From positions 124,001 to 188,000 of the forward strand of contig NZ_QFXK01000029.1 of the NCBI RefSeq assembly GCF_003261635.1: a DNA stretch of 64,000 nt, written 5' to 3'. Every line of letters begins with the position of its first letter. The first letter of the stretch is position 1. The position numbers were made by a program, and so were the translations under genes. Below, one piece after another: positions 33,335 through 63,337 of this stretch. The stretch is from Kribbella monticola. Its GTDB lineage: Bacteria; Actinomycetota; Actinomycetes; Propionibacteriales; Kribbellaceae. The notes beneath the pieces are model-generated. The model was not told the origin of the DNA. It did not search any database and saw only the letters and a list, made by a program, of their open reading frames with translations.

Positions 33335-35614
33335 GTGAACAAGGGCGGGCGGGCCGCGGTGATCGCGGCACTGGCGAGCGTGCCGGTGCTGCCGCTGGGC
33401 TGGTTCGCCGGGCTTCAGGCACAACCTGCCTGGATGCCCGCCGCCTACCTCGGTTATCTGCTGTTCGTGATCGCCGTCCCCGGCACGCTGTTCTGGCGGC
33501 GGCTCACCGGCGGCACGGGCTGGTTCGCAGTCGACGCAGTCCTCGGTACGACGTTCGGTCTCGCGTGCGAAGCGCTGATCTACCCACTGGGACGCTGGCT
33601 CGACATCCCGCTGCTCGCCTTGGTCATGCCGGCTCTGGCGCTCGGAATGGTGCTGGCGCTGCCGCGGCGGAAGGAGACCGATCGGCCGACCCCGTGGTGG
33701 GCTGTCGCCGGGGTGATGGTCTCCGTCGGCGTCGTGTCCGCCTGGTTCATCCGGATCGGCTCCAGGCTCATCGCGCTCGACGGACCGGCCGCCCTCAGGC
33801 CCAACTCCGACTCGCCGTACCAGCTGTCCCTTGCGGCCGAGCTGACCCATCACTTCCCACCGCAGGTGCCATATGTGGCCGGTGAACCGCTCACCTACCA
33901 CTGGATGGTCTACAACCACATCGCTTCCGCGCACTGGATCACCGGGATCGAGCTCGACGTCCTGACCCAGCGGATCGTCCCGTTCGCGTTCATCCTGCTC
34001 ACAGCACTCGGCGCTGCGGCAGTCGGCATGGTGCTGACCGGCCGGGCCGTAGCGGCGCCGATCGCGGCAGCGCTGACGGTGATGGCCGGCGACCTGTCGC
34101 CGTGGGCGTGGACGACGACCAACACTCTCTACAACGACAGCCCGCTCTCGATGGGCCAGATGATCAGTCCGACCCAGGCGTTCTCCACCGTGCTGATGCT
34201 GCCGCTGATCGCGGTCACCGCGCTCATCCTGCGCCGGAAACGTGAGCACACCCGTGGCCGCTTGGCGGGGCTCTTCCTCGTCGCAGCCGTGCTCATCGCT
34301 GTCCTCTCAGTCGCCAAGGCCACCGAACTGCCCGTGTACGCCGCTGGGCTGCCCGCCGCGTGGATCTACCTATCGGTGCGCGCGCGGCGGGTCAACCTGC
34401 GCACACTCGTCCTCGCCGTACTGGCCGTCATCGGCTACGGAGTCAACTTCCTGCTGATCGTGCGCGGCGCGAGCCAGGGGATGGCGATCAAGCCGGCCGG
34501 GACCTTCCGGTCGATGCTGCAAGGGATGACCGTCGGCCTCGCCCCCGACGTGCGGCCGGGTCGATCGGTGCTGGTGATCGTCTCGGCGGCGATCGTCGTC
34601 GGCTGGCTGATGCCGGTCGTCGGCGCGCTGCTGATCCGCCGCCGGATCCCGCGCGACCCGATGGCGGTGTTCCTGGTGGCCGGCTTCGTCCTCGCGATCG
34701 GGGCCGCCTCGATCTTGTACCAGTTCGCCCAGGCCCAGGTCTTCTTCGCCCGGAACGCCTTCATCTACGGGGTTCTGATCGCCACCTGGGGACTGGCGTC
34801 GCTCGACCGTCGGCTCTATCTCGCGGTCGGGCCGGCCCTGGCCCTCGGCGTCGCCGCTATTTACTACGCCAGATCACGGTTGGACGGCGGTCTGATCCGA
34901 AGCTGCCGGGACACCGGTTGCCTGGACCGGATCTTCGCCGAACCGTTGCTCACAGCACTGATAGTCGTTGCCGTCGGCATCGTCGTACTCGGTCTGGTGT
35001 TCCGCGGATCGGGCCGGACCTGGGCGGCGATCGCGGTGGCGGCTCTGCTCGGGCTGACCGTGTCGCCGACGATCGCGAGCCTGCAGAGATTCGCGAATCC
35101 CGGCGGTTCGACGTACGAGTCCATTGCTCCGGGTGGGATCGAGGCGGCGCGCTTCATCCGGCGGCAGTCGGGACCCGACGAGCTGATCGCCACCAACATC
35201 CATTGCCATCGACCGACCAGTACGGTCGCCGGTGGCGGCCTGTCCGTGGGCAAGCGGGCGGACCAGAGATGCCACAGCGGCTCGTTCTGGATCCCCGGCT
35301 ATGCGGAGCGCCGCGTCCTCGTCGAAGGCTGGGCGTACACGGCCAAGGCCAACAACCACGCCGACACCTCGAGCGAAGCGCTCTACAGCCCGTTCTGGGA
35401 CCAGGAGAAGCTCCGCCTGAACGACGCCGCCTTCACCACCCCGACCCGAGAAGGCCTGGCGACCCTACACACGAAGTACGGCGTCAACTGGCTCTTCGCC
35501 GACTCCCGCGTCAACCCCATCCCGGACACCCTCAGCAAACTGGCCGAACTGAGATTCCACTCCGGCACAGTCAGCGTCTACCAACTCCGCCCGACCCCAC
35601 CCGCCGGTCAGTGA
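33335..35614 (+). CDS. Large polytopic membrane protein, putative GT-C glycosyltransferase (paralogue A)
   Basis: A 759-residue protein with about 13-14 membrane segments and a soluble C-terminal domain (about 600-759). It shares with three others in this window a first-loop motif (FPPQVPYVAGEPLTYHWM), and in the C-terminal domain an ATNIHC segment, VLVEGWAYT and YGVNWLFAD followed by a final VYQL. An Asp ahead of the first-loop block (NSDSPYQLSL) could be the catalytic acid of a GT-C enzyme, which transfers sugars from polyprenyl-phosphate donors outside the membrane. The GTG start follows AGAAGGG. The GT-C label is inferred from topology and context. Confidence 0.65.
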   Translation: MNKGGRAAVIAALASVPVLPLGWFAGLQAQPAWMPAAYLGYLLFVIAVPGTLFWRRLTGGTGWFAVDAVLGTTFGLACEALIYPLGRWLDIPLLALVMPALALGMVLALPRRKETDRPTPWWAVAGVMVSVGVVSAWFIRIGSRLIALDGPAALRPNSDSPYQLSLAAELTHHFPPQVPYVAGEPLTYHWMVYNHIASAHWITGIELDVLTQRIVPFAFILLTALGAAAVGMVLTGRAVAAPIAAALTVMAGDLSPWAWTTTNTLYNDSPLSMGQMISPTQAFSTVLMLPLIAVTALILRRKREHTRGRLAGLFLVAAVLIAVLSVAKATELPVYAAGLPAAWIYLSVRARRVNLRTLVLAVLAVIGYGVNFLLIVRGASQGMAIKPAGTFRSMLQGMTVGLAPDVRPGRSVLVIVSAAIVVGWLMPVVGALLIRRRIPRDPMAVFLVAGFVLAIGAASILYQFAQAQVFFARNAFIYGVLIATWGLASLDRRLYLAVGPALALGVAAIYYARSRLDGGLIRSCRDTGCLDRIFAEPLLTALIVVAVGIVVLGLVFRGSGRTWAAIAVAALLGLTVSPTIASLQRFANPGGSTYESIAPGGIEAARFIRRQSGPDELIATNIHCHRPTSTVAGGGLSVGKRADQRCHSGSFWIPGYAERRVLVEGWAYTAKANNHADTSSEALYSPFWDQEKLRLNDAAFTTPTREGLATLHTKYGVNWLFADSRVNPIPDTLSKLAELRFHSGTVSVYQLRPTPPAGQ

Positions 35615-35618
35615 GTCG

Positions 35619-36893: not shown

Positions 36894-36899
36894 CACCCT

Positions 36900-36905
36900 A
36901 AACTA
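36900..36905 (-). promoter_or_regulatory. -10 box of the AAA/DUF4143 gene
   Basis: TAGTTT ends 6 nt before the ATG at 36893 and overlaps the conserved GGTAGT of the nearest 23-bp repeat, so anything bound to the repeats would cover the promoter. Confidence 0.5.
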
Positions 36906-38559: not shown

Positions 38560-38754
38560 GTCACTCTCCGACCGATCCATAGATGAAGTCGGAAAAATAG
38601 TTACACGCCCGGGCTCCGAGCAGAAGAGGTTGCGGCCGGCGATTCGATCCGGTGATGACCCGATGCGGTAGCTGTCTGGCAGGTGAATGGCTGGTCGCCG
38701 GGGCCAGCCAGTACCGTGGGGACCGGATCAACCAGGGACCGAGAGGGCGGGAAA

Positions 38755-39276
38755 GTGCTGCGTACGGCCACCGACGGCGACGTCGACATCATCCGGGTGC
38801 TGCGCAACCAGGAGCCCAACCGCGAGGTCAGCGTCAACGCCCACGAGATCTCGCCCGACGAGCACGCGGCCTGGTGGGCAAAGGCCAGCGTCGACCCGAC
38901 CCGGCGGGTGCTGATCTACGAACGCGACGGGGTCACCGCCGGAGTGGTGAACTTCTTCGACCTGGAACTCGAGACCGAGCCCAGGACCGGCGCCTGGGGC
39001 TTCTTCCTGGACGCCGAGGGCCTGGCCGAGCGCGGCGAGACGCTGCCCGCGTGGATCGAGGTCATGAAGGACGCCACCAACTACGCGTTCGACGAGCTCG
39101 GCCTGGACGAGCTGCACGGTGAGGTGCTCGAGCACAACGCCGTGGTCCGGCAGATGAACCGGCGGTTCCGCTTCGTCGAAGGTGAACCGGAGACCCGGTA
39201 CGCCGACGGCCGCGAGATCACCGTGTTCCCGATCAGCCTGCACAAAGACAACCGGCGGAAGCCGAAGGGAAACTGA
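38755..39276 (+). CDS. GNAT acetyltransferase, PseH-like
   Basis: A 173-residue acetyltransferase resembling PseH, which N-acetylates the 4-amino group of UDP-4-amino-4,6-dideoxy sugars in pseudaminic acid synthesis. The region DGDVDIIRVLRNQEPNREVSVNAHEISPDEHAAWW matches the family N-terminus, and the late motif VLEHNAVVRQMNRRFRFVEG is the usual N-A-xxxx-x-x-y-x-kxGF-like tail. The GTG at 38755 follows GAGAGGGCGGG. It is 5 bp upstream of the nonulosonate synthase, so the two form an operon. The direct substrate is inferred from this pairing. Confidence 0.78.
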   Translation: MLRTATDGDVDIIRVLRNQEPNREVSVNAHEISPDEHAAWWAKASVDPTRRVLIYERDGVTAGVVNFFDLELETEPRTGAWGFFLDAEGLAERGETLPAWIEVMKDATNYAFDELGLDELHGEVLEHNAVVRQMNRRFRFVEGEPETRYADGREITVFPISLHKDNRRKPKGN

Positions 39277-39281
39277 ACCTC

Positions 39282-40340
39282 ATGAGTGCCAGCAAGACCA
39301 TCAACTTCGGCGACGTCCCGGTCGGCCCGGACCACCAGCCGTTCATCATCGCGGAGATGTCCGGCAACCACAACGGCGACCTCGAGCGGGCCAAGGACAT
39401 CGTCCGCGCGATGGGCGAGACCGGTGTCCAGGCGCTGAAGCTGCAGACGTACACCGCCGACACGATCACGCTCGACGTCGACCTGCCGGCGTTCCGGCTG
39501 CCGTCGGAGCACGAGCTGTGGGGCGGCGCCCGGCTGTACGACCTGTACCAGGAGGCGCACACGCCGTGGGAGTGGCACGAGCCGCTGTTCGAGCTGGCCA
39601 ACTCGCTCGGCATGCTGGCGTTCTCGTCGCCGTTCGACCCGACCGCGATCGACTTCCTGGAGAAGCTGAACGTCCCGGCGTACAAGGTCGCCTCCAACGA
39701 GATCGGCGACCTGCCGCTGGTGCGCGGGATGGCCGAGACCGGCAAGCCGATCATCATCTCGACCGGTTCGGCGACGCTGATGGACATCGACGCGGCGGTT
39801 CGCGCGGCCCGGTCCACCGGTAACGAGCAGATCATCGTGCTGTCCTGTACGGCGAGCTACCCGGCGCCGGCCGACCAGTCGAACCTCCGCTCGATCCCGG
39901 TACTGCGGGACGCTCTCGGCGTCCAGATCGGCCTGTCCGACCACACGATGGGGATCGGCGCCTCGATCGCGGCCGTGGCGCTCGGCGCGACGGTGATCGA
40001 GAAGCATGTCACGCTGTCCCGCGCCGACGGCGGCGTCGACTCGGCGTTCTCGCTGGAACCGGCCGAGGTGAAGCTGCTGGTCGAGGGCACCAAGGTCGCC
40101 CAGCAGGCCCTCGGTGAGCCGATCGTCGGCCCGAAGCAGGCCGAGCAGAACGTGCTCCGCTTCCGCCGCTCGCTCTACATCACCCGCGACGTCAAGGCCG
40201 GTGAAAAGGTGGCCGCCGACAACGTCCGCTCCGTCCGCCCCGCCGGCGGCCTCGCCCCCGACGCCTTCACTTCCGTCGAAGGCCGCGAATTCCGCGTCGA
40301 CGCAGTAGCCGGCACCCCCCTCACCTGGGACGTCCTCTGA
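39282..40340 (+). CDS. pseI: Nonulosonic acid synthase (PseI/NeuB family)
   Basis: A 352-residue enzyme that condenses phosphoenolpyruvate with a 6-carbon amino-sugar to give a nine-carbon sialic-type acid. FIIAEMSGNHNGDLERAKDIV, KLQTYTADTITLD, KVASNEIGDLPLV, LSCTASYPAP and GLSDHTMG define the NeuB barrel; a C-terminal SAF (antifreeze-like) domain (about 295-352) closes the active site. Length and HTPWEWHEPLF fit PseI (pseudaminic acid) better than NeuB, but Kdn or legionaminic acid cannot be excluded. The partner enzymes PseB, C, F and G are not in the window. Confidence 0.88.
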   Translation: MSASKTINFGDVPVGPDHQPFIIAEMSGNHNGDLERAKDIVRAMGETGVQALKLQTYTADTITLDVDLPAFRLPSEHELWGGARLYDLYQEAHTPWEWHEPLFELANSLGMLAFSSPFDPTAIDFLEKLNVPAYKVASNEIGDLPLVRGMAETGKPIIISTGSATLMDIDAAVRAARSTGNEQIIVLSCTASYPAPADQSNLRSIPVLRDALGVQIGLSDHTMGIGASIAAVALGATVIEKHVTLSRADGGVDSAFSLEPAEVKLLVEGTKVAQQALGEPIVGPKQAEQNVLRFRRSLYITRDVKAGEKVAADNVRSVRPAGGLAPDAFTSVEGREFRVDAVAGTPLTWDVL

Positions 40341-40353
40341 GCCTCAGCAGCTG

Positions 40354-41206: not shown

Positions 41207-41653
41207 CTAGTTGTGGGATTTGTCGCGGAAGGTCCAGAAGTTGTGGAGGAGGTAGGAGGCGACCGGGACGGCGCCGATGACGAGGGCCTGGGCGAGGAGG
41301 ACCGGGAGGCCGAAGACCTCGATCAGCAGCGGCATGCCGAGCAGGGAGCAGCCGAGGCCGAACAGGTAGACCGTGTAGAACTTGGCGAAACCGCGGATCC
41401 AGCCGGCCGAGGTGGAGCCGAAGACGAAGTCGCGGTACAGCGGGTAGACGATCAGGGCGGTGGTGAAGTTCGCCGCCGCGGTGACCGCGAGGTACGGGAT
41501 CGAGTGCTGGAGGAAGTGCCAGCCGAGCCAGAACAGGCCGAAGTACAAGACATTCGTGCCGACGCCGACGATCAGGTAGCGGACCCGGTGGTCCCCGGCG
41601 ACCTTCGCGAGCTTGCTCGCGGCGGGCTTGGGGCCGAGCTGAGCGACAGAAAT
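41207..41653 (-). CDS. GtrA-family membrane protein, probable ATT start
   Basis: A 148-residue GtrA-like protein with four membrane helices, the family thought to flip polyprenyl-phosphate-linked sugars. The conserved first helix (RYLIVGVGTNVLYFGLFW) lies upstream of the first usual start codon: reading back from the TTG at 41548 there is no ATG, GTG or TTG in frame. An ATT at 41653 has AGAAGAGG 7-8 bases upstream and gives the normal family length. ATT initiation is rare (known for infC), so this is a proposal; a base error is the alternative. It is divergent from a GtrB-like GT2 gene. Confidence 0.78.
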   Translation of the reverse strand: MSVAQLGPKPAASKLAKVAGDHRVRYLIVGVGTNVLYFGLFWLGWHFLQHSIPYLAVTAAANFTTALIVYPLYRDFVFGSTSAGWIRGFAKFYTVYLFGLGCSLLGMPLLIEVFGLPVLLAQALVIGAVPVASYLLHNFWTFRDKSHN

Positions 41654-41773
41654 GGCAGGACCTCTTCTGGTCGGTGGAAGAATAAGGGCAGTTCGAAGAC
41701 GTGGAACAATCGCAGCGGCGGAACCGCCGTGACCGCCTCCCCCGCGCCTGTGTCACCAGCAGAAGGGCCAGCA

Positions 41774-42727
41774 GTGTTCGTCTCCGTCGTCGTGCCATGT
41801 TACCGGTCGGCAGCCACGCTGCCGCGCCTCGTCGAGAATCTGACCCAGGTCTTACCCGACGTGACATCCGGCTACGAGATCATCCTGGTCGTCGACGGCA
41901 GCCCGGACGACACCTGGCAGGTCGCCAGCGAACTGTCGAACAAGTACGCCAAGACCCGGGCCATGCGGCTGGCCCGCAACTACGGCCAGCACAACGCTTT
42001 GATCGCCGGCGTGCGAAACGCGCGGTACGAGGTGGTCATCACGATGGATGACGACCTGCAGCACCCCGCCGACCAGGTCCCGGTCCTGCTCCGGGCCCTC
42101 ACCGACGACGTCGACCTGGTCTACGGCGTACCGGTCGAGGAGGAGCACGGCGTACTGCGCAGCTTCGCCTCCCGGCTGGTCAAGGGGGCGATGTCTGCCA
42201 CGCTGTCGGTGAAGGGCGCCCGGTCCATCAGCGCCTTCCGGGCCTTCCGGACCTTCCTGCGCGACGGTTTCGACGGGCTGGACGGCCCGCACGCGTCGGT
42301 CGACGTGGCGTTGTCGTGGTCGACCACCCGGATCGCGCAGACCACTGTGCGGATGGAGGATCGCGCCGAGGGCAAGTCGAACTACACGACCTGGATGCTG
42401 GTCAAACACGCGCTCACCCTGATCACCGGCTACTCCACCGAGCCGCTGCGGCTGGTCGGCTACCTCGGCTTCATCTGTGCGGTGTTCGGGGTCGGCCTGT
42501 TCGGCCTGATCATCTACAAGTACGTCGCGGGCGCAACGACCGTGGCCGGTTTCACCACGATCGCCTCGATGGTTGCCCTGTTCTCCGGTGCCCAGATGCT
42601 CGCGCTCGGCGTTCTCGGCGAGTACGTCGGACGCCTGCACTCCGGCTCGATGGGCCGCCCGACGTACGTGATCCGCGAGCGCACCGACGTCGACGCGCAC
42701 CCCGACATCACGAGCGAGAGCGACTGA
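41774..42727 (+). CDS. Polyprenyl-phosphate glycosyltransferase, GtrB/DPM1-like
   Basis: A 317-residue GT2 enzyme that transfers a sugar from a nucleotide donor to undecaprenyl or decaprenyl phosphate. SVVVPCYRSAATLPRLVENL, VVDGSPDDTW, NYGQHNALIAGV and ITMDDDLQHP (metal-binding DDD) mark the catalytic domain; two C-terminal membrane helices (about 228-290) anchor it, as in GtrB/ArnC. The GTG at 41774 has AGAAGGG 6 bases upstream; earlier GTGs at 41729 and 41750 are weaker. It is divergent from the GtrA flippase gene and its stop directly abuts the next ATG. Confidence 0.9.
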   Translation: MFVSVVVPCYRSAATLPRLVENLTQVLPDVTSGYEIILVVDGSPDDTWQVASELSNKYAKTRAMRLARNYGQHNALIAGVRNARYEVVITMDDDLQHPADQVPVLLRALTDDVDLVYGVPVEEEHGVLRSFASRLVKGAMSATLSVKGARSISAFRAFRTFLRDGFDGLDGPHASVDVALSWSTTRIAQTTVRMEDRAEGKSNYTTWMLVKHALTLITGYSTEPLRLVGYLGFICAVFGVGLFGLIIYKYVAGATTVAGFTTIASMVALFSGAQMLALGVLGEYVGRLHSGSMGRPTYVIRERTDVDAHPDITSESD

Positions 42728-46028: not shown

Positions 46029-46851
46029 GCTCTCTCCAATCGAACAACATGCGCAGTTCCTCGGCCGGCATCATCCATGGGACGCCGAGCTCGAGGTCGG
46101 TGGTCGCGCGGGCGGCGGCCAGGTCGATGTCCTTACCGAGCATCTCAGGCCACAGCCTGGCGATCCGGCTCTGCCCGCCGAACAGCGGGTTCTCGCCCTC
46201 CATCTCCATCGGGTCGCCGTACACGGCCGGCTCGCAGCCGGCGGCGATGCCGTAGAAGATCGCGGTGGACAGCCGGTTCGCGGCCACCCGCTTGTGCTTG
46301 CGCAGCTCGGCCAGCTGCTTGTACAGGAAGCGCGGATCCGTGCCCTCGTAGGAGAACCCGCGACGGCCGAACGAGACCACCCGGAAGCCGGCGTCCTCGT
46401 AGGACTTGCGCACCTCGGGCCGGTCGTACTCGGTGTAGTACAGGCTGAACGTGACCGGGCCGGGCTCGGTCTCGCGGATCTCGTCGATCAGGCGCTTGTG
46501 GTCGCCCTGGATCTTGCCGCCCTCCCAGCCGTGGAAGAGGAACCAGAGCGTGCCTTCCCGCTCTTCCTCCGGTACGACGCCGAGGTCGGGCTCCAGCTCC
46601 TGCAGGTACAGGAAGGGGGCGCCGATGCTGTGGTAGTTCCGGCGGCCCAGTGCGTGCCCACGGCGGCGCGGGCCGTCGCTCCAGGTGAACCGCCAGGCGC
46701 CGTCGTAGAACTCGTGCACCGGGTTCCAGCCGTCGGCGATGTTCCAGCCGTGCTGCAGGTAGCCGCGCAGGCGGGGCGGGTACTCGTCGTCCAGACCGGC
46801 GTACCGGGCCAGGATGTGTGCCTGGCCGTAGTAGTGGTTGTGGTGATGCAT
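46021..46851 (-). CDS. Putative GT-B-type glycosyltransferase-like protein
   Basis: A 276-residue soluble protein. LRGYLQHGWN near the N-terminus and the late segment RVAANRLSTAIFYGIAAGCEPAVYGDPM resemble the acceptor-side and donor-binding ends of capsule or teichoic GT-B proteins, in which N/S-rich 'lsta..ya...G.p...yG' contacts the nucleotide. No catalytic motif can be assigned with confidence. The ATG shares a base with the upstream stop (TGATG), so it is coupled to the large GT2 gene; it also overlaps the next gene. A wall-polymer role is inferred from this operon. Confidence 0.55.
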   Translation of the reverse strand: MHHHNHYYGQAHILARYAGLDDEYPPRLRGYLQHGWNIADGWNPVHEFYDGAWRFTWSDGPRRRGHALGRRNYHSIGAPFLYLQELEPDLGVVPEEEREGTLWFLFHGWEGGKIQGDHKRLIDEIRETEPGPVTFSLYYTEYDRPEVRKSYEDAGFRVVSFGRRGFSYEGTDPRFLYKQLAELRKHKRVAANRLSTAIFYGIAAGCEPAVYGDPMEMEGENPLFGGQSRIARLWPEMLGKDIDLAAARATTDLELGVPWMMPAEELRMLFDWRERV

Positions 46852-49353: not shown

Positions 49354-50145
49354 TCACCCTTCGCGACCGGCCGCTTCCGGTTCACCGGACAGCAATCCCG
49401 GCGTCACGAGATGGACAGTCAACAGGGTGTGCACGGGCTCGAAGCCGTACCTGGCCCACGCCCGTTGCACTCCGGTGTTCTGCCCCTGCGTGGAGATCAC
49501 CAGCCGGCGCGACGTACTCGCGTCCTCTACTGCAGCCAGCAGGTGACCGTAGCGTCCCCGGCCCTGCTCAGCCGGTACTACGCCCGCGAGCTCGATTTCT
49601 GTCCACGACTCCTGTTGGTCGACGGTTGCCAGCCCGAGCACCCGGTGGTCCGGACCACGCAGTACGACCGCACCCTCGTCGGCGATGCTGCGCCGGGCCC
49701 ACTCCTGGTAGCCCGCGAGAGCCAATGCCCTGTCGAACAAGGGGTTCGCGCAGTAGTGATTGCCGTAGTCACCGAAGATGTCGCCGACCAGGTCGTCCAC
49801 CAGGTCGTCGTCGATCGCCCGCTCGAGTCCGGCGTTGAACCCCGCCAGGGGAGCCGGGCGGCGGCCCTTGCCGACCGGGAGCGACCAGTAGACCAGGCTG
49901 TCGGCCAGCAAGGCGGTCCGCGGCCCACTGGCGAGCGCGGCGAACCACTGCACCTCGCGAGCCGGATAACGCAGTACGACGACGTCGGCCGTCGACTTGT
50001 CGACCGCTGTGAGCACCTCGGCCAACTGGCTCCCGGCCGAGGCCGAGACGGTGACCCGGTCGACCGAGACGCCGAACCGCTTCGATTCGTACGCCGAAGG
50101 CGCGGTGATCAGCTCGCCCGCCTCGAGCGCGTCGTACCAGCCCAT
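49354..50145 (-). CDS. GNAT acetyltransferase, WecD/RffC-like
   Basis: A 263-residue two-part GNAT protein, similar in size and layout to dTDP-fucosamine acetyltransferase WecD. The C-terminal GNAT core has TEIELAGVVPAEQGRGRYGHLLAAVEDAS (acetyl-CoA loop QGRGRYG) and TQGQNTGVQRAWARYGFEPV. The N-terminal half includes SLVYWSLPVG and FGDYGNHYCANPLFD, as in WecD. Its ATG shares a base with the WecE-like stop (TGATG), so the aminotransferase product is its likely substrate. The final product would be a 4-acetamido-4,6-dideoxyhexose on dTDP. Confidence 0.82.
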   Translation of the reverse strand: MGWYDALEAGELITAPSAYESKRFGVSVDRVTVSASAGSQLAEVLTAVDKSTADVVVLRYPAREVQWFAALASGPRTALLADSLVYWSLPVGKGRRPAPLAGFNAGLERAIDDDLVDDLVGDIFGDYGNHYCANPLFDRALALAGYQEWARRSIADEGAVVLRGPDHRVLGLATVDQQESWTEIELAGVVPAEQGRGRYGHLLAAVEDASTSRRLVISTQGQNTGVQRAWARYGFEPVHTLLTVHLVTPGLLSGEPEAAGREG

Positions 50146-51290
50146 CAGAGCTGGTACGAGAACAGGCCGTCGAGGACGCGGTCCTGCTCTGTCTCGGTGA
50201 GCTGGCTGAACAACGGGAGCCGCACCAGCCGGCTGCTGAGGTCCTCGGTGACGTCGCAGCCGCCCGGACCGACCCGGCCGTACTTCTTCCCGGCCGGAGC
50301 CGAGTGCAGCGGCACGTAGTGGAACGCCGCGGTGATGTTGCGCTCGCGCAGGTGCGCGATCAGCCCGAGCTGGTGCTCATGGGAGGGCATCAGCACGTAG
50401 TACATGTGCGCGGGGTGCACACAGTCGGCAGGGACCGTCGGCAGGCCGACGCCGTTCGCCTCGGCCCAGTCGGGGAGCTTGTCGTGGTAACGCTGCCACA
50501 TAGCCAGCCGCGGTGCCTGGATCTCCTCGAACAGTTCCAGCTGGGCGGTCAGGAACGCAGCGAGTGGGTCGGCCAGCAGGTAACTGGAGCCGATGTCGAT
50601 CCAGCGGTACTTGTCGACCTGGCCGCGGAAGAACTGGCTGCGGTTCGTGCCCTTCTCCCGGATCACCTCCGCGCGGTGGAGCAGGTCGGCGTCGTTCAGC
50701 ACCAGCGCGCCGCCCTCACCGCAGTGCACGTTCTTGGTGCCGTGGAACGACTGCGTCGCCATCTGCCCGAGCGAACCGAGCGGACGGCCCTTGTACGAAC
50801 CGCCGAGGCCGTGCGCGTTGTCCTCGATCACCGTCAGCCCGTGCTTCTCGGCGATCGCCAGCACGGTGTCCATCTCGACCGCGACGCCGGCGTAGTGGAC
50901 CACGACGATCGCCTTGGTCCGGTCGGTGATCGCAGCCTCGACCTGGGTCTCGTCGAGGTTCAGCGTGTCCGGCCGGATGTCGACGAACACCGGTACGGCG
51001 CCGCGCAGCGCGTATGCGTTGGCCGTCGAGACGAAGGTGAACGACGGCATGATCACCTCGTCGCCGGGCTCCAGGTCGAGCAGCAGCGCGGTCATCTCCA
51101 GCGCATGCGTGCAGGAGGGCGTCAGCAGTGCCCCGACGCCACCGGCCAGCTTCGTGAGCAGCTCGGAGGCGCGGGCGGTGAACGGGCCGTCCCCGACCAC
51201 CGCGGCCGAGGCGAAGGACTGGTTGACGTAGGCGAGTTCGTCGCCCGCCACAAAGGCCTTGACGAAGGGGATCGGAGACAGGTCGGGCAT
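50145..51290 (-). CDS. wecE: dTDP-4-amino-4,6-dideoxyhexose transaminase (WecE/RffA)
   Basis: A 381-residue PLP enzyme of the DegT/DnrJ/EryC1 family that converts dTDP-4-keto-6-deoxyglucose to dTDP-4-amino-4,6-dideoxy-galactose using glutamate. Near-complete WecE signatures are seen: FVSTANAYALRGAVPVFVDI, VHYAGVAVEMD, VIEDNAHGLGGSYKGRPLG and SFHGTKNVHCGEGGAL, with Lys186 as the PLP lysine. FHYVPLHSAPAGKKYGR is typical of WecE. It is coupled to the WecD-like gene. RmlA and RmlB, which supply the substrate, are not in the window. Confidence 0.93.
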   Translation of the reverse strand: MPDLSPIPFVKAFVAGDELAYVNQSFASAAVVGDGPFTARASELLTKLAGGVGALLTPSCTHALEMTALLLDLEPGDEVIMPSFTFVSTANAYALRGAVPVFVDIRPDTLNLDETQVEAAITDRTKAIVVVHYAGVAVEMDTVLAIAEKHGLTVIEDNAHGLGGSYKGRPLGSLGQMATQSFHGTKNVHCGEGGALVLNDADLLHRAEVIREKGTNRSQFFRGQVDKYRWIDIGSSYLLADPLAAFLTAQLELFEEIQAPRLAMWQRYHDKLPDWAEANGVGLPTVPADCVHPAHMYYVLMPSHEHQLGLIAHLRERNITAAFHYVPLHSAPAGKKYGRVGPGGCDVTEDLSSRLVRLPLFSQLTETEQDRVLDGLFSYQL

Positions 51291-51301: not shown

Positions 51302-52333
51302 CTACCCGTGGTCGGTAGCGCGGTCCGAAACAGCTTGAGCGGCAGCGTCGGCAGTGGCTTCGTCAAGGGCTTCGGCGTACGAATGATGACCGGGGTCCTC
51401 GAGGCTGTCGTAGCCGATCATGAACTGCGGCCGCCGCTGGCTGGCCTGGAACAAGCGGGCCACGTACTCCCCCAGCAACCCGAGGCAGAGCAACTGGAGC
51501 GCACCGATCGTCCCGACGGCGAGCACCGTAGAGGTCCAGCCGGGAATGCTCCGGCCGGTCAGCTTGATCGCCAACGCAGCAACCACGACCCCCACCGACA
51601 GCAACCCGCCGAGCAGCCCGAGCCACGTCGCGAGCCGCAGTGGCGCCGCCGAGAAGGCAGTCAGGCTGTCGAAGGCCAGCCGGAACATCTTGGACAGCGT
51701 GTACTTCGTACTTCCGGCGGCCCGCTCTGCGCGGACGTACTTCACCTCCGCGCTCGGGAAGCCCAGCCACGGGATCACCAGCCGGAAGACCCGGCCGTCC
51801 TCGGGTAGCTGGTTCACTGCGTCCACCACGCGCCGGGAGACGAGCCGGAAGTCACCCGCGTCGAACGGCAGATCGCGGCCGACCAAGCGGCACATGAGCC
51901 GGTAGTAGAGGCGCGCGGTCGTCCGCTTCGCCCAGCTGTCGCTGGAGCGATCGGAACGTACGCCGTACACGACGTCGACGTCGTCCTCGCGCGCTGTGGC
52001 GAGCAGCTCGGCGATGACCTCGGGTGGATCCTGCAGGTCGGCGTCGATGGTGACCAGGTATTCACCGCGAGCCAGCTGGAATCCGGCCGACAGGGCCGCC
52101 TGGTGGCCGCTGTTGCGCAGCAACCGGACCAACCGGAGCTCTGGCCAGTCCGCGCTCGCCCTGGTGAGTAATGCGGCGGTCCGGTCGCGGCTTCCGTCGT
52201 CGACCACCACCAGCTCGTAGCTGAGCCCCAGGCCGTCCAGCAGTGGGTGCATCCGGTCGAGGAAGATCGGCAGCACGTCCTCCTCGTCGTACATTGGTAC
52301 GACGACGGACAGTACGGGCCGAGTGGTTTGCAT
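51302..52333 (-). CDS. Polyprenyl-phosphate glycosyltransferase, ArnC/DPM1-like
   Basis: A 343-residue GT2 enzyme with VLSVVVPMYDEEDVLPIFLDRM, VVDDGSRDRT, RNSGHQAALSAGF and TIDADLQDPPEV (DxD), a specificity segment FDAGDFRLVSRRVVDAVNQLPEDGRVFR, and two C-terminal membrane helices (about 228-300) as in ArnC and GtrB. It would load a sugar on polyprenyl phosphate for use by GT-C enzymes. GGAGGAGGG lies 8 bases before the ATG. It is 11 bp upstream of wecE and divergent from paralogue B of the large membrane family, a pairing that suggests donor and user. Confidence 0.9.
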   Translation of the reverse strand: MQTTRPVLSVVVPMYDEEDVLPIFLDRMHPLLDGLGLSYELVVVDDGSRDRTAALLTRASADWPELRLVRLLRNSGHQAALSAGFQLARGEYLVTIDADLQDPPEVIAELLATAREDDVDVVYGVRSDRSSDSWAKRTTARLYYRLMCRLVGRDLPFDAGDFRLVSRRVVDAVNQLPEDGRVFRLVIPWLGFPSAEVKYVRAERAAGSTKYTLSKMFRLAFDSLTAFSAAPLRLATWLGLLGGLLSVGVVVAALAIKLTGRSIPGWTSTVLAVGTIGALQLLCLGLLGEYVARLFQASQRRPQFMIGYDSLEDPGHHSYAEALDEATADAAAQAVSDRATDHG

Positions 52334-52400: not shown

Positions 52401-54761
52401 GTGCCGACGATGACCAATGACACCGCCAGTAGCCTCGCTACTGCGGAGCGTGAGGTCAGTCCGTCCATGCCGTCGCTGCTCAGTCTGTTGCCGTGGCGGC
52501 CTATCGGCGCCGGCGCGGTGAAGGTGGCAGCCGGGGTCGCCCTGGCCTGGTTGACGATCTGGCTGATGGCCAGTCACTCGTCCAGCCACGACATCGTCGC
52601 GCTGCTGCGCTTCTGGGTCTTCGGGATCACCCTGCCGGGCACGCTGCTGTGGCGCCTGGCCAGCCCGTTCCGGCACAACCTGATCGAGGACTTCGCCGCT
52701 GGCTCACTGGTCGGCGTGTCCCTGCTGATCCTGGTCTATCTGGGGGTTGCTCCCCTCGGCGGCCAGCGGTGGGCCTGGCTGTGGGCCGCGCCCGTGATCA
52801 TCGCGGTGACCGTCGTACCGAGCTGGCGACGACGCTGCCTCCAGCGCGTCGAGCGACCCGTCTCACCCTTGACGGCCTGGTTGGTCGCCACCACGCTTGC
52901 CCTGCCGCTCTACGCCATCGGGCGGTACCGCGCGCTGGCTCCCGCGCCGTACACCGATGCCCGCTCCCACGTGCCGGACATGGCCTTCCACCAGGCGCTG
53001 GCCGCGAGCGCCAAGTACGACGTACCGCTGCAGGCGCCGTACGTGAACGGCGAGCGGATGGACTACCACTACTTCTGGCACCAGCTCACCGCCGCCACTT
53101 CCTGGGCCACCGGAGTGGACCTCACCGACCTGATCTACAACATCGGCTGGATCCCCCTGCTGCTGGCCGGTTGTGCGCTGATCTACGCGCTCACCGACCG
53201 GATCGCACCCGGCTCGCGCTGGGCCGGGCCGCTGGCCATCGCCGTCGCCGGTATCGCCGGCACCGTCGATGCGTACCCGTCCGTGCGCCTCCCGGCGGAG
53301 AGCCTGATCAGCTACTACTGGGGCAGCCCGACGCAGAATCTCGGCGGTGCCCTGATCACTTTGCTGGCACTGATCGGTGTCGATCTGCTGCGCGGGCGAA
53401 GCGGCCCTGCCACCTGGGTGCTCTTCGTCGTGATCGCCGCCGCCGCGTCGGGTTCGAAGGCGACCGTGCTGCCGATGATCATCTGCGGGCTCGGGCTGGT
53501 GGTGTTCATCCGGCTGCTCTACGGCCGCTTCGCCAAGGGCGCGCTGCTGATCGCGATCGTGCTCGGCGGCATCTTCGTGGCCGCCATTTTCGTTGTCTTC
53601 GGCAACAAGTCGTCCGGCCTCGCGGTCCGGCCGTGGGTGACGTTCGCGAAGGTCGGCATCTATCCGCTGGTCGCCAAACCGGTCGAGGGCGGTGGGTTCG
53701 ACCATGCCGCGATGTGGATCGGCGGCATCACCTTGTGCCTCGGCCTGCTGCTCGGCTCGGCCGGCCTGCTGGTGCTGCTCGGTACGGCGGCCCGCTGGTT
53801 CCGCGATCCGGGCATGATCTTCCTGGTCGGCATCGCGATCGCCGGCTTCGGCGGCCTGGTCCTGACCGACCAGCCGGGCACCAGCCAGCTGTACTTCCAC
53901 CGGACCGCGGTGCCGATCATCGCCGCCCTCGCCGCAGCGGGCGTGTGGATGCTGGTGTTCTGGTTTGCCGACCGGCGGTCGGGCGTGCTCGTGTTCGTCT
54001 CGCTGCTCGGCGGGATCGGGGCGACCGCGGCCGCCCGGTCGATCGTGAAGGCCAACCCGGGCGACGGCAAGCCGTTCCTGACAGCGGACGGACGGCTGAC
54101 CGGGCTGATCGCGCCGTGGGTCTGGACGATCACCTTCCTGCTCGCGGTCGCGATCCTGGTGACCGTTCTGTGGAAGCTCGCCAAGCGCCGAGGGCGGCCG
54201 ACCAGAGTCGCGACGGCATCCTTCGTCCTGGCGGGGATGGGCGCCGGACTCTTCCTGCCCCTGCAGGCGATGGCTTCGTATCACCGGACCGACCTGCCTC
54301 CGCTGTCCGACGACTTCAAGCTCGGTCCCTCGGCGACCCAGACGACAGCCGCCCTGTGGCTGCGCGACCACACCGCACCTGGCGAGCTGATCGCCACCAA
54401 CGCGCACTGCACGATGAAGAACACCACCGGCTGCGACTCCCGGCACTTCTGGATCGCTGCCCTGAGCGAACGCCACGTGCTGGTCGAAGGCTGGGGCTAC
54501 ACCAACACCATCAACGAGCTCGTCGCGGACACCGGGATGAGCCCGAACGGCCTGCCGTTCTGGGACCAGCAGAAACTCGAGGACAACGACCGCGCCTTCA
54601 TCACCCCGACCCGCGACAACCTGCGGCTCCTGAAGGTCAAGTACGGCGTCCGCTGGCTCTACGCCGATCCCGGGCAGACCGTGGTCGAGACGGCGAAGCT
54701 CGACACGCTCGCGACGCTGCGATTCAAAGCGTCCGACGCGCTGATCTACGAACTTCCTTGA
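52401..54761 (+). CDS. Large polytopic membrane protein, putative GT-C glycosyltransferase (paralogue B)
   Basis: A 786-residue protein with about 13 membrane helices and a C-terminal soluble domain. It resembles paralogue A most closely: VPLQAPYVNGERMDYHYFWHQL in the first large loop, ATNAHCTMKNTTGCDSRHFW, VLVEGWGYT, FWDQQKLEDNDRAFITPTR and YGVRWLYAD near the end. The GTG at 52401 is preferred because of the -10 box 6 nt upstream; the ATG at 52410 is a close alternative. It is divergent from the ArnC-like GT2 gene. The GT-C function is inferred; the shared C-terminal Cys, Trp and Asp residues suggest a conserved, possibly substrate-binding, exterior domain. Confidence 0.65.
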   Translation: MPTMTNDTASSLATAEREVSPSMPSLLSLLPWRPIGAGAVKVAAGVALAWLTIWLMASHSSSHDIVALLRFWVFGITLPGTLLWRLASPFRHNLIEDFAAGSLVGVSLLILVYLGVAPLGGQRWAWLWAAPVIIAVTVVPSWRRRCLQRVERPVSPLTAWLVATTLALPLYAIGRYRALAPAPYTDARSHVPDMAFHQALAASAKYDVPLQAPYVNGERMDYHYFWHQLTAATSWATGVDLTDLIYNIGWIPLLLAGCALIYALTDRIAPGSRWAGPLAIAVAGIAGTVDAYPSVRLPAESLISYYWGSPTQNLGGALITLLALIGVDLLRGRSGPATWVLFVVIAAAASGSKATVLPMIICGLGLVVFIRLLYGRFAKGALLIAIVLGGIFVAAIFVVFGNKSSGLAVRPWVTFAKVGIYPLVAKPVEGGGFDHAAMWIGGITLCLGLLLGSAGLLVLLGTAARWFRDPGMIFLVGIAIAGFGGLVLTDQPGTSQLYFHRTAVPIIAALAAAGVWMLVFWFADRRSGVLVFVSLLGGIGATAAARSIVKANPGDGKPFLTADGRLTGLIAPWVWTITFLLAVAILVTVLWKLAKRRGRPTRVATASFVLAGMGAGLFLPLQAMASYHRTDLPPLSDDFKLGPSATQTTAALWLRDHTAPGELIATNAHCTMKNTTGCDSRHFWIAALSERHVLVEGWGYTNTINELVADTGMSPNGLPFWDQQKLEDNDRAFITPTRDNLRLLKVKYGVRWLYADPGQTVVETAKLDTLATLRFKASDALIYELP

Positions 54762-54773: not shown

Positions 54774-55760
54774 TTACGCGGGCAGCACCTGCACACCACT
54801 GACGTCCACCGAACCGGCGTCCTCGACCACGATCGGCCGGCGCCCTCGGCGTGGCGGTGGGTTGCCGACCTCGACCGGCAGCGGCTGGACCGTCACGTCG
54901 CGAAGATCGAGGTCGACGAACGGCCGGGTGCTGATCGCTCCGTCGACCTCGCTCCGGCCCCAGCCCGCGACCCGGATCGCGTACAGATCACCGCACCAGC
55001 CGATGGCGCAGTCGCGGATCGACAGCCCGTGGTTGATCCCGCGCCCGGCACCTTCCTCGCGGTACCGGTCGGTGTTGTCGCCGGGCAGCAACCTGAAGCC
55101 GATCTCCACCCGTTCGCACTGCACGTCGCGGACTTCGACGTCGTGCACCGAGCTGAGACAGAACGCCTCGAAAGCGTCGTACACCCGGAGTCCGTCGACT
55201 TGGAAGTGATGAGGGTGCAGTGAGTATCCGGTGATGTCGCTGACGCCGGCGCCGACGGCACCCCAGTGCGCGATGAACGCCGTACCGCCGCCGTGTACTT
55301 CGAGATCCGACAACCGCACGTCCCGGACTGCGCCGATGAGAGTGAGGTTGTTGGCCGCACAGCGTCCGGCGCGCCGGACCACCAGCCGTCGTACGGCGAT
55401 CCGCTCGATCCACTCCGGCTGCTCGGCGTAGAAGTACCGGCCGATCGTGACGGCGGTCCACTCGGCTCCGTCGTGCGGACCGGGTGAGGCGTCCGGAAGC
55501 TCCACGGTCAGGTCGGTGACGGTGACGTCGGAGCCGAGGACGTGGATCAGCGGCGCCGACTCGGCCCGCGCGCGCCACAACGTCGTACCGGAGCCCGACA
55601 GGGACCACGAGTCGGTGAGGACGAGGCCGCCGCTGATCGGGTACGACCCGGCAGGCAGGAGCAACCGGCCACGTTCGGATTCGGTCAACAGCGCGCGAAG
55701 CAGCTCGCCGTTGTCGTCGCCGTCGTCACCGAGCCGTGGCCGGTAGTCGGGAACAGTCAG
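54774..55760 (-). CDS. Right-handed beta-helix protein, uncertain start
   Basis: A pectate-lyase-like beta-helix protein, 328 aa if read from a CTG at 55760, 304 aa from a TTG at 55688. No ATG or GTG is in frame upstream of the helix. The CTG overlaps the preceding stop as CTGA, like the ATGA couplings elsewhere here, and its extra residues (about DDGDDNGELLRALLTESERG) continue the N-terminal cap, so I favour it. Repeats of about 22 residues with VTVTDLTVEL, VRDVRLSDLEVHGG, VHDVEVRDVQCERV and LSIRDCAIGW form the coil. No signal peptide. Polysaccharide binding or modification is likely; the catalytic residues are not evident. Confidence 0.65.
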   Translation of the reverse strand: MTVPDYRPRLGDDGDDNGELLRALLTESERGRLLLPAGSYPISGGLVLTDSWSLSGSGTTLWRARAESAPLIHVLGSDVTVTDLTVELPDASPGPHDGAEWTAVTIGRYFYAEQPEWIERIAVRRLVVRRAGRCAANNLTLIGAVRDVRLSDLEVHGGGTAFIAHWGAVGAGVSDITGYSLHPHHFQVDGLRVYDAFEAFCLSSVHDVEVRDVQCERVEIGFRLLPGDNTDRYREEGAGRGINHGLSIRDCAIGWCGDLYAIRVAGWGRSEVDGAISTRPFVDLDLRDVTVQPLPVEVGNPPPRRGRRPIVVEDAGSVDVSGVQVLPA

Positions 55761-58665: not shown

Positions 58666-58671
58666 CAGAGA

Positions 58672-58677
58672 GTTATA
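58672..58677 (-). promoter_or_regulatory. -10 box for leaderless GT-B gene
   Basis: TATAAC on the minus strand, nearly consensus, ends 6 nt before the GTG at 58665. Confidence 0.55.
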
Positions 58678-58736
58678 GCAGTCAACCCCTCTTCGTGTTA
58701 TCTGTGCCACGTCACCGATCTAGACCGGTCCGGATT

Positions 58737-61064
58737 TCACCGCCCGGTGAGCTCGTAGACCTTCACCCGGGATTCCTGATGCCGCAGCGAAGCCAGCCGG
58801 TCCAGGGCCGGTGAGACGGGGCCGTCCCGAAGGTCCGCGTAGATCCAGCGCACGCCGTACTGCGATCGCAGGCGGTCCAGCAGTTGCGGGGTCGGCGCGG
58901 TGAGTGCCTGGTGGGTGAGCTCGACCCGATCCAGCCAGGGCGAGGGCTGGAAGAAGTACTTGATGCCGTTGACCCCGTTGTTCGCCATCCCCTGCTGCGT
59001 GTAGGCCCAGCCCTCCAGCAGAACGCGCCGGCCGGCGATGCCGCTCACGATGTACCCGCGGGCATCGCACCCGGGTCGCTGCGGGCCGGCAGGGCGGCAG
59101 TAGGTGTTGGCGAGCACGACGTCGTTCGGTGCGGAGTTCTTCGCCAGCCAGCGCGCTGCGGCGAGCTCGTCGGGGTACACCCGCCAGCCTGCCGAGACGA
59201 AGTGGCCTGAGCCGTGGAGGTGGCGAACTCGCCACGCATCGGTTACGACCGTGCCGATCGGTAGTCCGATCACGACGAGCATCGCGAAGGCCATGCCCAG
59301 TCCCGTGAGGCACTGCCGACGGCGAGCCCACAGCCAGACGATCAACGCCAGTACGGCGAGCAGGACAGTCACCAGGAGGGGACGGGCGAGCACCTCGATC
59401 TGGGCGGCGCGGAACCCGGTGGCGTTCTTCCTGACCAGCCCTGCGCAGACCGCGATCGCAGTACCGGTCCCCAGCCCGACCAGGCCGGTACGAAGGATCG
59501 TGCGCCGGCTGCGGCCTCGGACGCCGACTGCGATCAGCCAGCCGACCGCTGCGGCCGCGAACGGCAGACCGGAGCGCAGGAAGTAGTACTGGCTCGCAGA
59601 GGGATGGTTCACCAGGCTCACGCCGAGCCAGGAAGCGGTCAACCCTCCGACCAGGAACCAGGCGACAGGGCTCTGCCGCAGCGCGCGGACCCCGATCAGT
59701 CCGAAGCCGGCCAGCAGCGCCGCGTGCGCGAGCACGAAGCCGGCCAGGATCACCAGGGCTCCTGCGACCGCCACGTGGTCCCCGGTCAGAGACCGGAGCA
59801 CCAGGCCGCCGGTACCGGCCAGCGAACCGTCGCCGGTCGCTCCGCGATAGCCGGGCTGGAACTTGGCGATCGCGAAGAGCTGGATCCCGGACCCGCTCGT
59901 GCTCCCGGCCACAGTGAGCATCGTCCACACGGTGATCGCGACCAGCAGTCCACCGATCGCGACGGCCCGCCAAGGGATGCGCCGTTCCTTCACCAGCAGG
60001 AACAGCGCCGACAGCCCCACGCCACCGATGAGGATCGGCAGCACGGTCGGCTTCGAACCACCTCCGACGACGGCCGCCGCCACCGCGAGCGCCCAGACTC
60101 CTCGACCACCACCGCGATAAAGAGCAGCGATCACGAAGTACGCCGCCGCGGCGAGAACCAACGTCGCCAAGGTCTGCGAGGGAGTCATCAGGCCGGCCGG
60201 GCCCACGAGGTCCACCTGAGACCAGGCCGGTACGAAGAAGCCCAGTTGCGGTACGACGAACGCCAGGCCGGCCAGCAAGCCGGTCCACCAAACCTTGCTG
60301 ACCTGACGAGCCAGTGCGGCTCCGGCCAGCAGACCGGCGAACATCACCGGCAGCAGCCACAGCCGGTACATCACCAGGATCGGCGAGAGCCTGGTGATGT
60401 CGACGGCGCCGGCCATGTCGGCATTGGGGAACCAGTGGTACTCCAATGCCTCGCCTGACACCTGGGGCAGCTGCGGTGGAACGCTGCGGAGCAGTTCGTT
60501 CACCATCGACAGGTGGTAGAGCCCGTCGGGGTAGTACGCGATGCCGTGCGGTGGTGGGGCGTGATCCGCCATCACGCCCAGCGTCGTCGCCAGCGCGAGC
60601 AGAGTCAGGCAGATCGACAGACCCCAGGACCACGCCATCGGCAATGGTTCAGGCTCGGCAATCCGCCAGTACTGCCGTAGCCCCGGAACCAGCGCGAAAG
60701 CCAGCAGGACCAGCAAAGGCCAGACGACGAGAAACTGCTGCACACCAAGCCAGGTGAAGAGAGCCCAACCGCCAAGCTGGTAAGCGATTCCGACAGCGGC
60801 TCCTAGACCGACGTCCTCGGCCCAGTTGCCTGTACTGCGCCAGAGAGCCCGCATGAGCAGGACGCCCGGCAGCACGACGCACGCCCCGAAGTACACGCCG
60901 TACCGGAGGATCGCTTCGAGCGGCACGTCGATGATCAGTAGCCCGACCACGGAGGCCACCACAGGGACAAGCCACGGCAGCAGCCCGTGCCGAATCCGGG
61001 CAGCTGGTCGCGGTGGCTCGACGGACAGGGCGTGGGTCTGCTCGTGCGGGATGACCGTGGCCAT
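58737..61064 (-). CDS. Large polytopic membrane protein, putative GT-C glycosyltransferase (paralogue C)
   Basis: A 775-residue protein with about 14 membrane helices; tandem neighbour and close paralogue of the next gene. Shared motifs are YYPDGLYHLSMVNELL and VPPQLPQVSGEALEYHWF (first exterior loop), SKPTVLPILIGGVGLSALFLL, IQLFAIAKFQPGY, LANTYCRPAG, CDARGYIVSGIAGRRVLLEGWAYTQQ and YGVRWIYADLRDGP. The Asp-His pair in the first loop (DGLYH) would suit a GT-C active site. Its ATG shares a base with the stop of paralogue D (TGATG). The two may act in one polymerisation step or on different sugars. Confidence 0.65.
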   Translation of the reverse strand: MATVIPHEQTHALSVEPPRPAARIRHGLLPWLVPVVASVVGLLIIDVPLEAILRYGVYFGACVVLPGVLLMRALWRSTGNWAEDVGLGAAVGIAYQLGGWALFTWLGVQQFLVVWPLLVLLAFALVPGLRQYWRIAEPEPLPMAWSWGLSICLTLLALATTLGVMADHAPPPHGIAYYPDGLYHLSMVNELLRSVPPQLPQVSGEALEYHWFPNADMAGAVDITRLSPILVMYRLWLLPVMFAGLLAGAALARQVSKVWWTGLLAGLAFVVPQLGFFVPAWSQVDLVGPAGLMTPSQTLATLVLAAAAYFVIAALYRGGGRGVWALAVAAAVVGGGSKPTVLPILIGGVGLSALFLLVKERRIPWRAVAIGGLLVAITVWTMLTVAGSTSGSGIQLFAIAKFQPGYRGATGDGSLAGTGGLVLRSLTGDHVAVAGALVILAGFVLAHAALLAGFGLIGVRALRQSPVAWFLVGGLTASWLGVSLVNHPSASQYYFLRSGLPFAAAAVGWLIAVGVRGRSRRTILRTGLVGLGTGTAIAVCAGLVRKNATGFRAAQIEVLARPLLVTVLLAVLALIVWLWARRRQCLTGLGMAFAMLVVIGLPIGTVVTDAWRVRHLHGSGHFVSAGWRVYPDELAAARWLAKNSAPNDVVLANTYCRPAGPQRPGCDARGYIVSGIAGRRVLLEGWAYTQQGMANNGVNGIKYFFQPSPWLDRVELTHQALTAPTPQLLDRLRSQYGVRWIYADLRDGPVSPALDRLASLRHQESRVKVYELTGR

Positions 61065-63337
61065 CAGCCTGCACCGAGCTCGTAGATCTTGACTTCACCC
61101 TCCTGGTAACGCAGTACCGCCAGCTCGTCCAGCTTGGCGGACGTCGGTCCGTCCCACCCGTCAGCGTAGATCCAGCGCACGCCGTACTGCTGACGAACCT
61201 CCGTCAGCAACTGCGCGGTCGGCGCTGTCAGGATCTGTTCGGTCAACTGGACTCGGTCGGGCCAGGGCGAGTCCTGGTACGCGTACCGCTTGCCGCCGAC
61301 TCCACTGGTCTCCAGCGCCTGCTGGGTATAGGCCCAGCCCTCCATCAGGGTTCGGCGACCGGCGATCCCGCTGACGAGATAGCCCCGCGCATCGCAACCG
61401 GGCTGCTGTGCGCCGGGCGGCTGGCACCAGGTGCCGGTGAGTACCACGTCGGCTGGGTCGGAGTGCGCGCCGAGCCACAGGGCGGCAGCCTGCTCGTCCG
61501 GATGGACCTGGCCGTTCACCGCGCGGTAGGTCCCATCCGTCTGGAAGGCGAAGTACGAGTACTTGGCCATGCCGACCAGAGACACTGCAATCGCCACGAG
61601 GACGGGCACAGCCGAGCCGAGTCCTGGCTGCTTCACCCGACGGCGTCTACTGAGCAGCCACCCGCAGACCAGCAGCGCGGTCAGTACGCCGGTTACGAGC
61701 AGCGGCCGGGCCAGCGCGTCGACCTGAGCCGCTCTGGAATCTTCGGAACGGAGCTTGGCGGGCTGCATGGCCACGAAGAACCCGACGCCGAGCACCAGTG
61801 CAGTGGCGCTCACCAGCAGGATCGTCCGGCCACTGCGGCCTTTGAACGCTACGGCAACCAGCCAACCCGCTGCCGCGGCCGCGAACGGCACGACGCTGCG
61901 CAGGAAGTACTGCTGACCCGCTGCGGGGTGATTCGCCACCAACAGCCCGATCCATGCACTCGCCAAAGTTCCTGCCAGCAGCCAGGCGACTGGATCACGC
62001 CTGGTCGATCGCACGAACAGCAAACCGAAGCCGGTCAGCAGTCCGGCCGACGACAACAAGATCAGTCCCAGCAGTACGGCGACCCCACTGATCGTCGTCG
62101 AGTCTCCCGAGGTCAGCCACGCTGGGACCAGCCCGCCGGTGCCCGGCACCGACGTGTCACCGGTGATCGCGGGGTACGCCGGCTGGAACCTGGCGATGGC
62201 GAAGAGCTGGAATCCCGATCCGCTCGGCCCCGCAATGAAGCGCAAGGTGACGAGCATGGCGAGCACCAGGACGAGGCCGGCGCCGACCGACCGCCAGAGC
62301 AGCTTCCGCTCCCGGACGAGGAGGAACAGCGCGGCCAGACCGACGCCGCCAGCCAGGATCGGCAGCATCGACGGCTTCGATCCACCAGCGACAACCGCCA
62401 GCGCCGCGGCGAGCACCCAGGCACCACGACCACCGCTGCGACGGAACACCGCATCGACGACGAAGATCGCCGCCGCTGTCCCCGCGACGATGCTGAACGT
62501 CAGAGATGGGCTGAGCAGACTCGCTGAGCCGGTCGGCAGCACCACCACTGCGGCGAGCACACCGGTCCACCACACCTTGCTGACCTGCCGGGCCAGCGCA
62601 GCGGACACAAGCAGCACGACAACCGCCTGCGGCAACAGCCAGAGGCGAAACAGCACGAGGGCCGGTGAGAGGCGGGTGATGTCCACGGCGCTCGCCATGT
62701 CAGCATCGGCGAACCAGTGGTACTGCAGCGGTTCGCCTGCCGCCTGCGGTAGCTGCGGCGGCACCGACCGCATCACCTCGTGCACCAACGACAGGTGAAA
62801 CAGCAGGTCCTGGTAGTACGCCGTACCGCTCGGCGGCGGCTGGTGATCGGCCAGCACGTTGAAGGTGGTGATGAGGACCAGCACCGTGGCACAGCCGGCG
62901 ACACCCCAGGACCAGGCCACCGGAAGCGGCACCGGCGCCACAATCCGCCAGCAAGACCGCAGCCGAGGCACGGCCGCGAAGACCGCCAGCACGAGCGCTG
63001 GCCAGGCGCACAACCAGGACTGCAGCCCCAGTGCAGTGAAGATCGCCCACCCCAGCAACTGGTACGCCGCCCCGACCGCTGCACCGAGCCCGAAGTCCTC
63101 AGCCCAGTTGCCAGTGCTCCGCCATGCGCCCCTGAGCAGCAGTACGCCGGGCAGAACCACGCAAAAGACGAAATAGCCGCTGTACTTCGCGATGTCCGCC
63201 AGCGGCACGTCGATCGCAAGCAGCCCACCCACCCCCGCGGCAACCGGGAGCAGCCACGGAATCAGCCGGCCAAGAACAGCGGAACCGGGCGCACGGGGAC
63301 TCGTGGCAACGGCGGGCTCCGCTTCGATCGCCGTCAC
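61064..63337 (-). CDS. Large polytopic membrane protein, putative GT-C glycosyltransferase (paralogue D)
   Basis: A 757-residue protein with about 14 membrane helices, first of a coupled tandem pair. It keeps the same blocks as paralogue C: YYQDLLFHLSLVHEVM, VPPQLPQAAGEPLQYHWFADADMASAVDITRLSPALVLFRLW, FQLFAIARFQPAY, VLTGTWCQPPG, CDARGYLVSGIAGRRTLMEGWAYTQQ and YGVRWIYADGWDGP. The GTG at 63337 has AGGAGAG upstream. Strong similarity over the whole length indicates a recent tandem duplication, in contrast with the more distant A/B copies 8-30 kb away. Confidence 0.65.
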   Translation of the reverse strand: MTAIEAEPAVATSPRAPGSAVLGRLIPWLLPVAAGVGGLLAIDVPLADIAKYSGYFVFCVVLPGVLLLRGAWRSTGNWAEDFGLGAAVGAAYQLLGWAIFTALGLQSWLCAWPALVLAVFAAVPRLRSCWRIVAPVPLPVAWSWGVAGCATVLVLITTFNVLADHQPPPSGTAYYQDLLFHLSLVHEVMRSVPPQLPQAAGEPLQYHWFADADMASAVDITRLSPALVLFRLWLLPQAVVVLLVSAALARQVSKVWWTGVLAAVVVLPTGSASLLSPSLTFSIVAGTAAAIFVVDAVFRRSGGRGAWVLAAALAVVAGGSKPSMLPILAGGVGLAALFLLVRERKLLWRSVGAGLVLVLAMLVTLRFIAGPSGSGFQLFAIARFQPAYPAITGDTSVPGTGGLVPAWLTSGDSTTISGVAVLLGLILLSSAGLLTGFGLLFVRSTRRDPVAWLLAGTLASAWIGLLVANHPAAGQQYFLRSVVPFAAAAAGWLVAVAFKGRSGRTILLVSATALVLGVGFFVAMQPAKLRSEDSRAAQVDALARPLLVTGVLTALLVCGWLLSRRRRVKQPGLGSAVPVLVAIAVSLVGMAKYSYFAFQTDGTYRAVNGQVHPDEQAAALWLGAHSDPADVVLTGTWCQPPGAQQPGCDARGYLVSGIAGRRTLMEGWAYTQQALETSGVGGKRYAYQDSPWPDRVQLTEQILTAPTAQLLTEVRQQYGVRWIYADGWDGPTSAKLDELAVLRYQEGEVKIYELGAG

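Follow-up and report, generated by a model that had tools for sequence, protein, structure and literature searches.

The window analysed here, a 64,000-nucleotide stretch of the Kribbella monticola genome, contains four genes for large membrane proteins, named paralogs A to D (open frames of 757-812 codons). Paralogs A (33335..35614, 759 aa) and B (52401..54761) are encoded on the + strand, and C (58737..61064, 775 aa) and D (61064..63337, 757 aa) on the - strand. The open frame of B runs from 52323, with a start near 52401-52410, and the gene lies head to head with a sugar synthase gene at 51302. D is directly upstream of C, and their stop and start codons have one base in common. The paralogy proposed in the initial annotation was clear: BLASTP E-values were at most 1e-31 in all pairs (1e-31 to 0; shuffled copies scored 26 bits or less), and GEx[LM]xYH[WY], EGW[AG]YT and YGVxWxxAD were each present once in every protein. 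The C-terminal signature described in the same annotation was found in full in A, B and D, including its TxxC element (TNIHC, TNAHC and TGTWC respectively); C has EGW(A/G)YT and YGVxWxxAD but carries ANTYC in place of TxxC.

The K. monticola genome has nine copies of this family. Six of them lie within 39 kb (C75:157455-195623), a segment that begins inside the window and extends beyond its end; two of these follow shortly after that end, and the remaining three copies are elsewhere in the genome. One distant paralog adjoins a TatD gene and an Rpf-like gene (L010:5696-12812, G000:C76), with probable ksgA and ispE genes farther out. All 24 of the other Kribbella genomes examined had at least three family matches, some of them fragments, compared to one of 14 non-Kribbella genomes of the same order (one copy). 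A phylum-wide scan detected the family in at least 2 of 396 genomes, a lower bound because only two candidates were scored per genome. Relatives were also present in Streptosporangiaceae, Micromonosporaceae, Intrasporangiaceae, a few other Actinomycetota and one Chloroflexi MAG.

C and D had been described as a fresh tandem duplication. They are in tandem in this genome, but share only 56% identity. At least three other Kribbella species carry distinct orthologs of C and of D, the two genes being head to head in three of them; the duplication therefore predates those species. In a tree of 70 sequences (quick method, root placed for drawing only), C, D and a copy located near the origin, outside the window, formed three sister groups, each with orthologs in other Kribbella, while A and B fell into other clades. 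Since the Kribbella copies belong to separate clades, the expansion suggested initially is made of several old lineages.

Neither the four proteins nor the alignments found more than chance matches in Pfam and NCBIfam, in agreement with the earlier statement that no named family could be recognised. Profile searches against the sequences of solved structures also detected no relative, and kinship to GT-C enzymes, presented below, therefore rests on structure and not on sequence. There was no match in the genome to AftA_N (PF12250), to DUF2298 (YYY, PF10060) or, at E <= 10, to STT3 (PF02516). Our literature search found no account of this GT-C family, and searching Kribbella together with teichulosonic or pseudaminic acid led mainly to a taxonomy paper. 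The sequence family is new to the curated catalogues searched, while the structural class, GT-C, is already known.

An AlphaFold model was built for paralog C alone, from 62 sequences (pLDDT 92, pTM 0.92). The closest solved fold was yeast STT3 (Z 16.3, 440 residues, rmsd 5.9), followed by EmbB (Z 13.2), ArnT (12.7), DPY19 (12.5) and AftA (12.1), and PMT4 was also matched; about 415-475 residues were aligned with the GT-C enzymes. Transporter-type folds did not exceed Z 6.4. The alignment with most GT-C relatives begins at approximately residue 135, so that the common core excludes four N-terminal helices, three long and one short; it begins at residue 25 for one ArnT entry and at 31 for AftA, which covers nearly the entire model (residues 31-774, 474 residues, rmsd 5.0). 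Seventeen transmembrane (TM) helices are predicted in C, and the alternation of Lys/Arg between inside and outside fits this number, with the N-terminus inside and the exterior domain outside. The GT-C topology suspected from the sequence was borne out by this structure prediction, and the GT-C identity of the family is well supported by the model.

The exterior C-terminal domain of C (58740..59213, - strand), modelled alone, adopted an STT3/AglB-type globular fold. It aligned with the equivalent C-terminal domains of AglB (3vu0; Z 9.9, rmsd 2.3 Å, 110 residues), PglB (3aag; Z 9.8) and yeast STT3 (Z 10.8). The first 33 structures in the ranking were all GT-C enzymes, after which Z dropped to 4.1. 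This domain had been regarded as unusual; as modelled, it has the known fold that oligosaccharyltransferases and DPY19 show in their C-terminal globular domain, combined with a sequence signature of its own. Cysteines C656 and C666 are nearly invariant in the alignment of 62 sequences and possibly form a disulfide.

D180 and K338 (C numbering) were invariant in 62 of 62 relatives. As the family was retrieved with a pattern in the EGW region, the invariance of that region is partly built in; D180 and K338 lie outside the pattern and are free of this bias. In the model of C, the exterior-loop helix that comes first after the fifth TM helix has D180 as its second residue; the corresponding invariant Asp of the first exterior loop (EL1) in A is D159. 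In all GT-CA enzymes, the tip of juxtamembrane (JM) helix 1 carries an essential Asp (PMC12041299), and D180 occupies this position in the model, at the JM1 tip between core TM1 and TM2, which suggests a catalytic role. In the same model K338 lies where a TM helix reaches the outer face, and it may contact the carrier phosphate.

The known products of ArnC/PgfS-like synthases are single sugars linked through a monophosphate. Two GT2 polyprenyl-phosphate sugar synthase genes are present in the glycan cluster, as anticipated in the initial annotation: one ArnC/PgfS-like (51302..52333, - strand) and a second one (41729..42727, + strand), each with two C-terminal TM helices. The second is divergent from a GtrA-type flippase gene (41207..41653, - strand; PF04138, 59 bits, cut-off 26), whose end coordinate is the limit of the open frame tested, the start codon not being fixed. 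In the 8 Mb genome there were five matches to ArnC/PgfS-like GT2 enzymes, and the strongest four were all near GT-C family members: three lie next to B, the near-origin copy and the copy at C75:190346, respectively, and the fourth adjoins GtrA in the cluster. Two C-terminal TM segments were present in the three that were checked. In the loci of relatives, an ArnC/PgfS-like GT2 was found in 51 of 75 (within 400 bp or overlapping in 25) and was not seen within the flank examined in the remaining 24; no GT2 adjoins paralog A. A GT2 enzyme with TM helices and a GtrA flippase, both present in this cluster, are components of the GT2, GtrA and GT-C scheme known as multi-component transmembrane glycosylation (PMC8035078).

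Pseudaminic acid and amino-sugar genes surround the paralogs. On the + strand, a gene for a PseH-like N-acetyltransferase (38683..39276, below the curated cut-off) is followed by the gene for the pseudaminic acid synthase PseI (39282..40340; 447.6 bits, cut-off 340). PseB and PseC are encoded just past the window end, both above curated cut-offs; PseG (below cut-off) and a cytidylyltransferase are more weakly supported than PseB, PseC and PseI. These four genes (L009:9614-16669) extend the PseH-like/PseI pathway of the window. Two small ORFs lie between PseG and PseB (L009:10712-11369), the first resembling an AbrB/VapB-type antitoxin and the second perhaps encoding its PIN-type partner. The - strand carries genes for a GT2 glycosyltransferase with a TarS-type linker (46851..49178), a possible WecD-like acyltransferase (49354..50145; weak match, 21.5 bits, cut-off 219) and a WecE-type dTDP-4-amino-4,6-dideoxygalactose transaminase (50145..51290; 542 bits, cut-off 375), the last 11 bases from the ArnC/PgfS-like GT2 gene. 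WecE-type genes were present in 20 of the 75 relatives' loci. A secreted protein resembling GHL10-type glycosyl hydrolases is encoded between paralog A and the pseudaminic acid genes (36994-38580). Four stretches (44256-46028, 54774-55688, 56974-58710 and L009:13636-15944) encode proteins with no Pfam match that recur in this same cluster in other Kribbella, and relatives of the 44256 and L009:15108 proteins recur in Nonomuraea loci too. Kribbellaceae walls contain teichuronic or teichulosonic acid (PMC6113628), and we infer that this cluster may make that polymer.

The four proteins are very probably sugar-transferring GT-C enzymes that decorate the cell exterior, and polyprenyl-phosphate sugars are their probable donors. 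Our preferred reading, to which we give a probability of roughly 0.72, is that A-D are GT-CA enzymes moving polyprenyl-phosphate sugars outside the membrane, with a pseudaminic acid wall glycopolymer as the most likely acceptor. An ArnC/PgfS-type GT2 would load one sugar onto polyprenyl phosphate on the cytoplasmic side, and a GtrA-type flippase would turn the product outward. The GT-C protein would then move the sugar at the outer membrane face, with the Asp (D180 in C) as the catalytic residue and Lys338 placed near the carrier phosphate. The acceptor would most likely be a pseudaminic acid-containing wall glycopolymer (teichulosonic acid) from the pathway of the neighbouring genes. As the WecE gene adjoins the GT2 gene next to B, the sugar that B transfers may be a 4-amino-4,6-dideoxyhexose. 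The separate paralogs might differ in the sugar they add or in their site of action. In this scheme the family, its fold and topology, the invariant residues and the co-location with GT2 and GtrA genes are computed results, while catalysis, donor sugar, acceptor and the roles of individual paralogs are proposals.

Some members could instead glycosylate surface proteins and not a wall polymer, the near-origin ortholog acting on a giant sortase-tailed protein, which we regard as unlikely. In 14 Kribbella loci, the near-origin copy or its ortholog is preceded by a GT2 gene and followed by the gene for a giant surface protein (at L059 the contig starts within the GT-C gene); in each of three loci inspected, the GT2 stop and GT-C start overlapped as ATGA. 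The surface proteins have approximately 1,900-2,100 residues (12-13% Thr); the K. monticola one (L012:5148-10955, G000:C77:13148-18955) is secreted, has 1935 aa with CshA and cadherin-like repeats and ends in an LPATGG tail. In the 13 further loci the tail is (L/I)PxTGG-like or degenerate, followed by a hydrophobic stretch and a basic end. The nearest named GT2 is PgfS, from the Streptococcus mutans Pgf operon that modifies surface adhesins (PMC5856776). However, the GT-C and surface protein genes are separated by about 130 bp in the loci inspected, so separate transcription is possible; no such surface protein neighbour was found for any window copy, and gene adjacency alone does not make the surface protein the acceptor. 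A mixed arrangement, one family with two kinds of acceptor, in which the near-origin GT2/GT-C pair would glycosylate the giant surface protein and the cluster paralogs the wall polymer, is a similarly tentative idea.

The extensive AftA alignment, the EmbB match and the clustering of several copies would also suit AftA/Emb-like enzymes that assemble the backbone of an exterior polymer rather than decorate it. We consider this quite doubtful, as the GT2 with the TarS-type linker could make the chain in the cytoplasm and AftA_N is absent from the genome matches. STT3 is the nearest fold for both the whole model of C and its exterior domain, but transfer of a whole oligosaccharide from polyprenyl diphosphate to asparagine is very improbable: W[WF]D[YWFH]G, the WWDYG sequon-binding type, was present in none of 70 family sequences, no PF02516 protein was matched, and the partner synthases are of the monophosphate, single-sugar type. 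That the proteins are transporters or flippases, as their numerous TM helices might suggest, is scarcely credible given the rank of GT-C folds far above transport folds and the place of the invariant Asp, which matches that of the catalytic Asp in GT-CA enzymes.

Decoration of a pseudaminic acid wall glycopolymer by A-D would give a likely function and partner genes to a family with no Pfam or NCBIfam model. To our knowledge, little is known of the enzymes that decorate nonulosonic acid wall polymers of actinobacteria on the cell exterior. The GT2-GtrA-GT-C scheme comes so far mostly from Firmicutes and, if our reading is true, reaches these polymers. The S. mutans Pgf system (PMC5856776) is similar in its PgfS-like GT2, and the near-origin ortholog adjoins a sortase-tailed surface protein; Pgf modifies proteins, whereas protein glycosylation in Kribbella is a candidate function. 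With ArnB-ArnC-ArnT the cluster shares the proximity of genes for a DegT-family aminotransferase, an ArnC-like GT2 and a GT-C enzyme, but Kribbella has a dTDP-sugar WecE and an actinobacterial wall with no lipid A, making this an analogy only. Multi-component transmembrane glycosylation (PMC8035078) is resembled in the GT2 with C-terminal TM helices and the GtrA gene beside the GT-C family, and in the probable wall-polymer setting; a difference is that no Pfam model matches the Kribbella GT-C proteins. STT3/AglB/PglB and DPY19 (GT-CA) share the order of the 13-TM core, the Asp at the JM1 tip and the exterior globular fold; in contrast to them, the Kribbella family has, in the model of C, an N-terminal extension of four TM helices, lacks WWDxG and detectable sequence similarity, and is partnered by monophosphate-sugar synthases.
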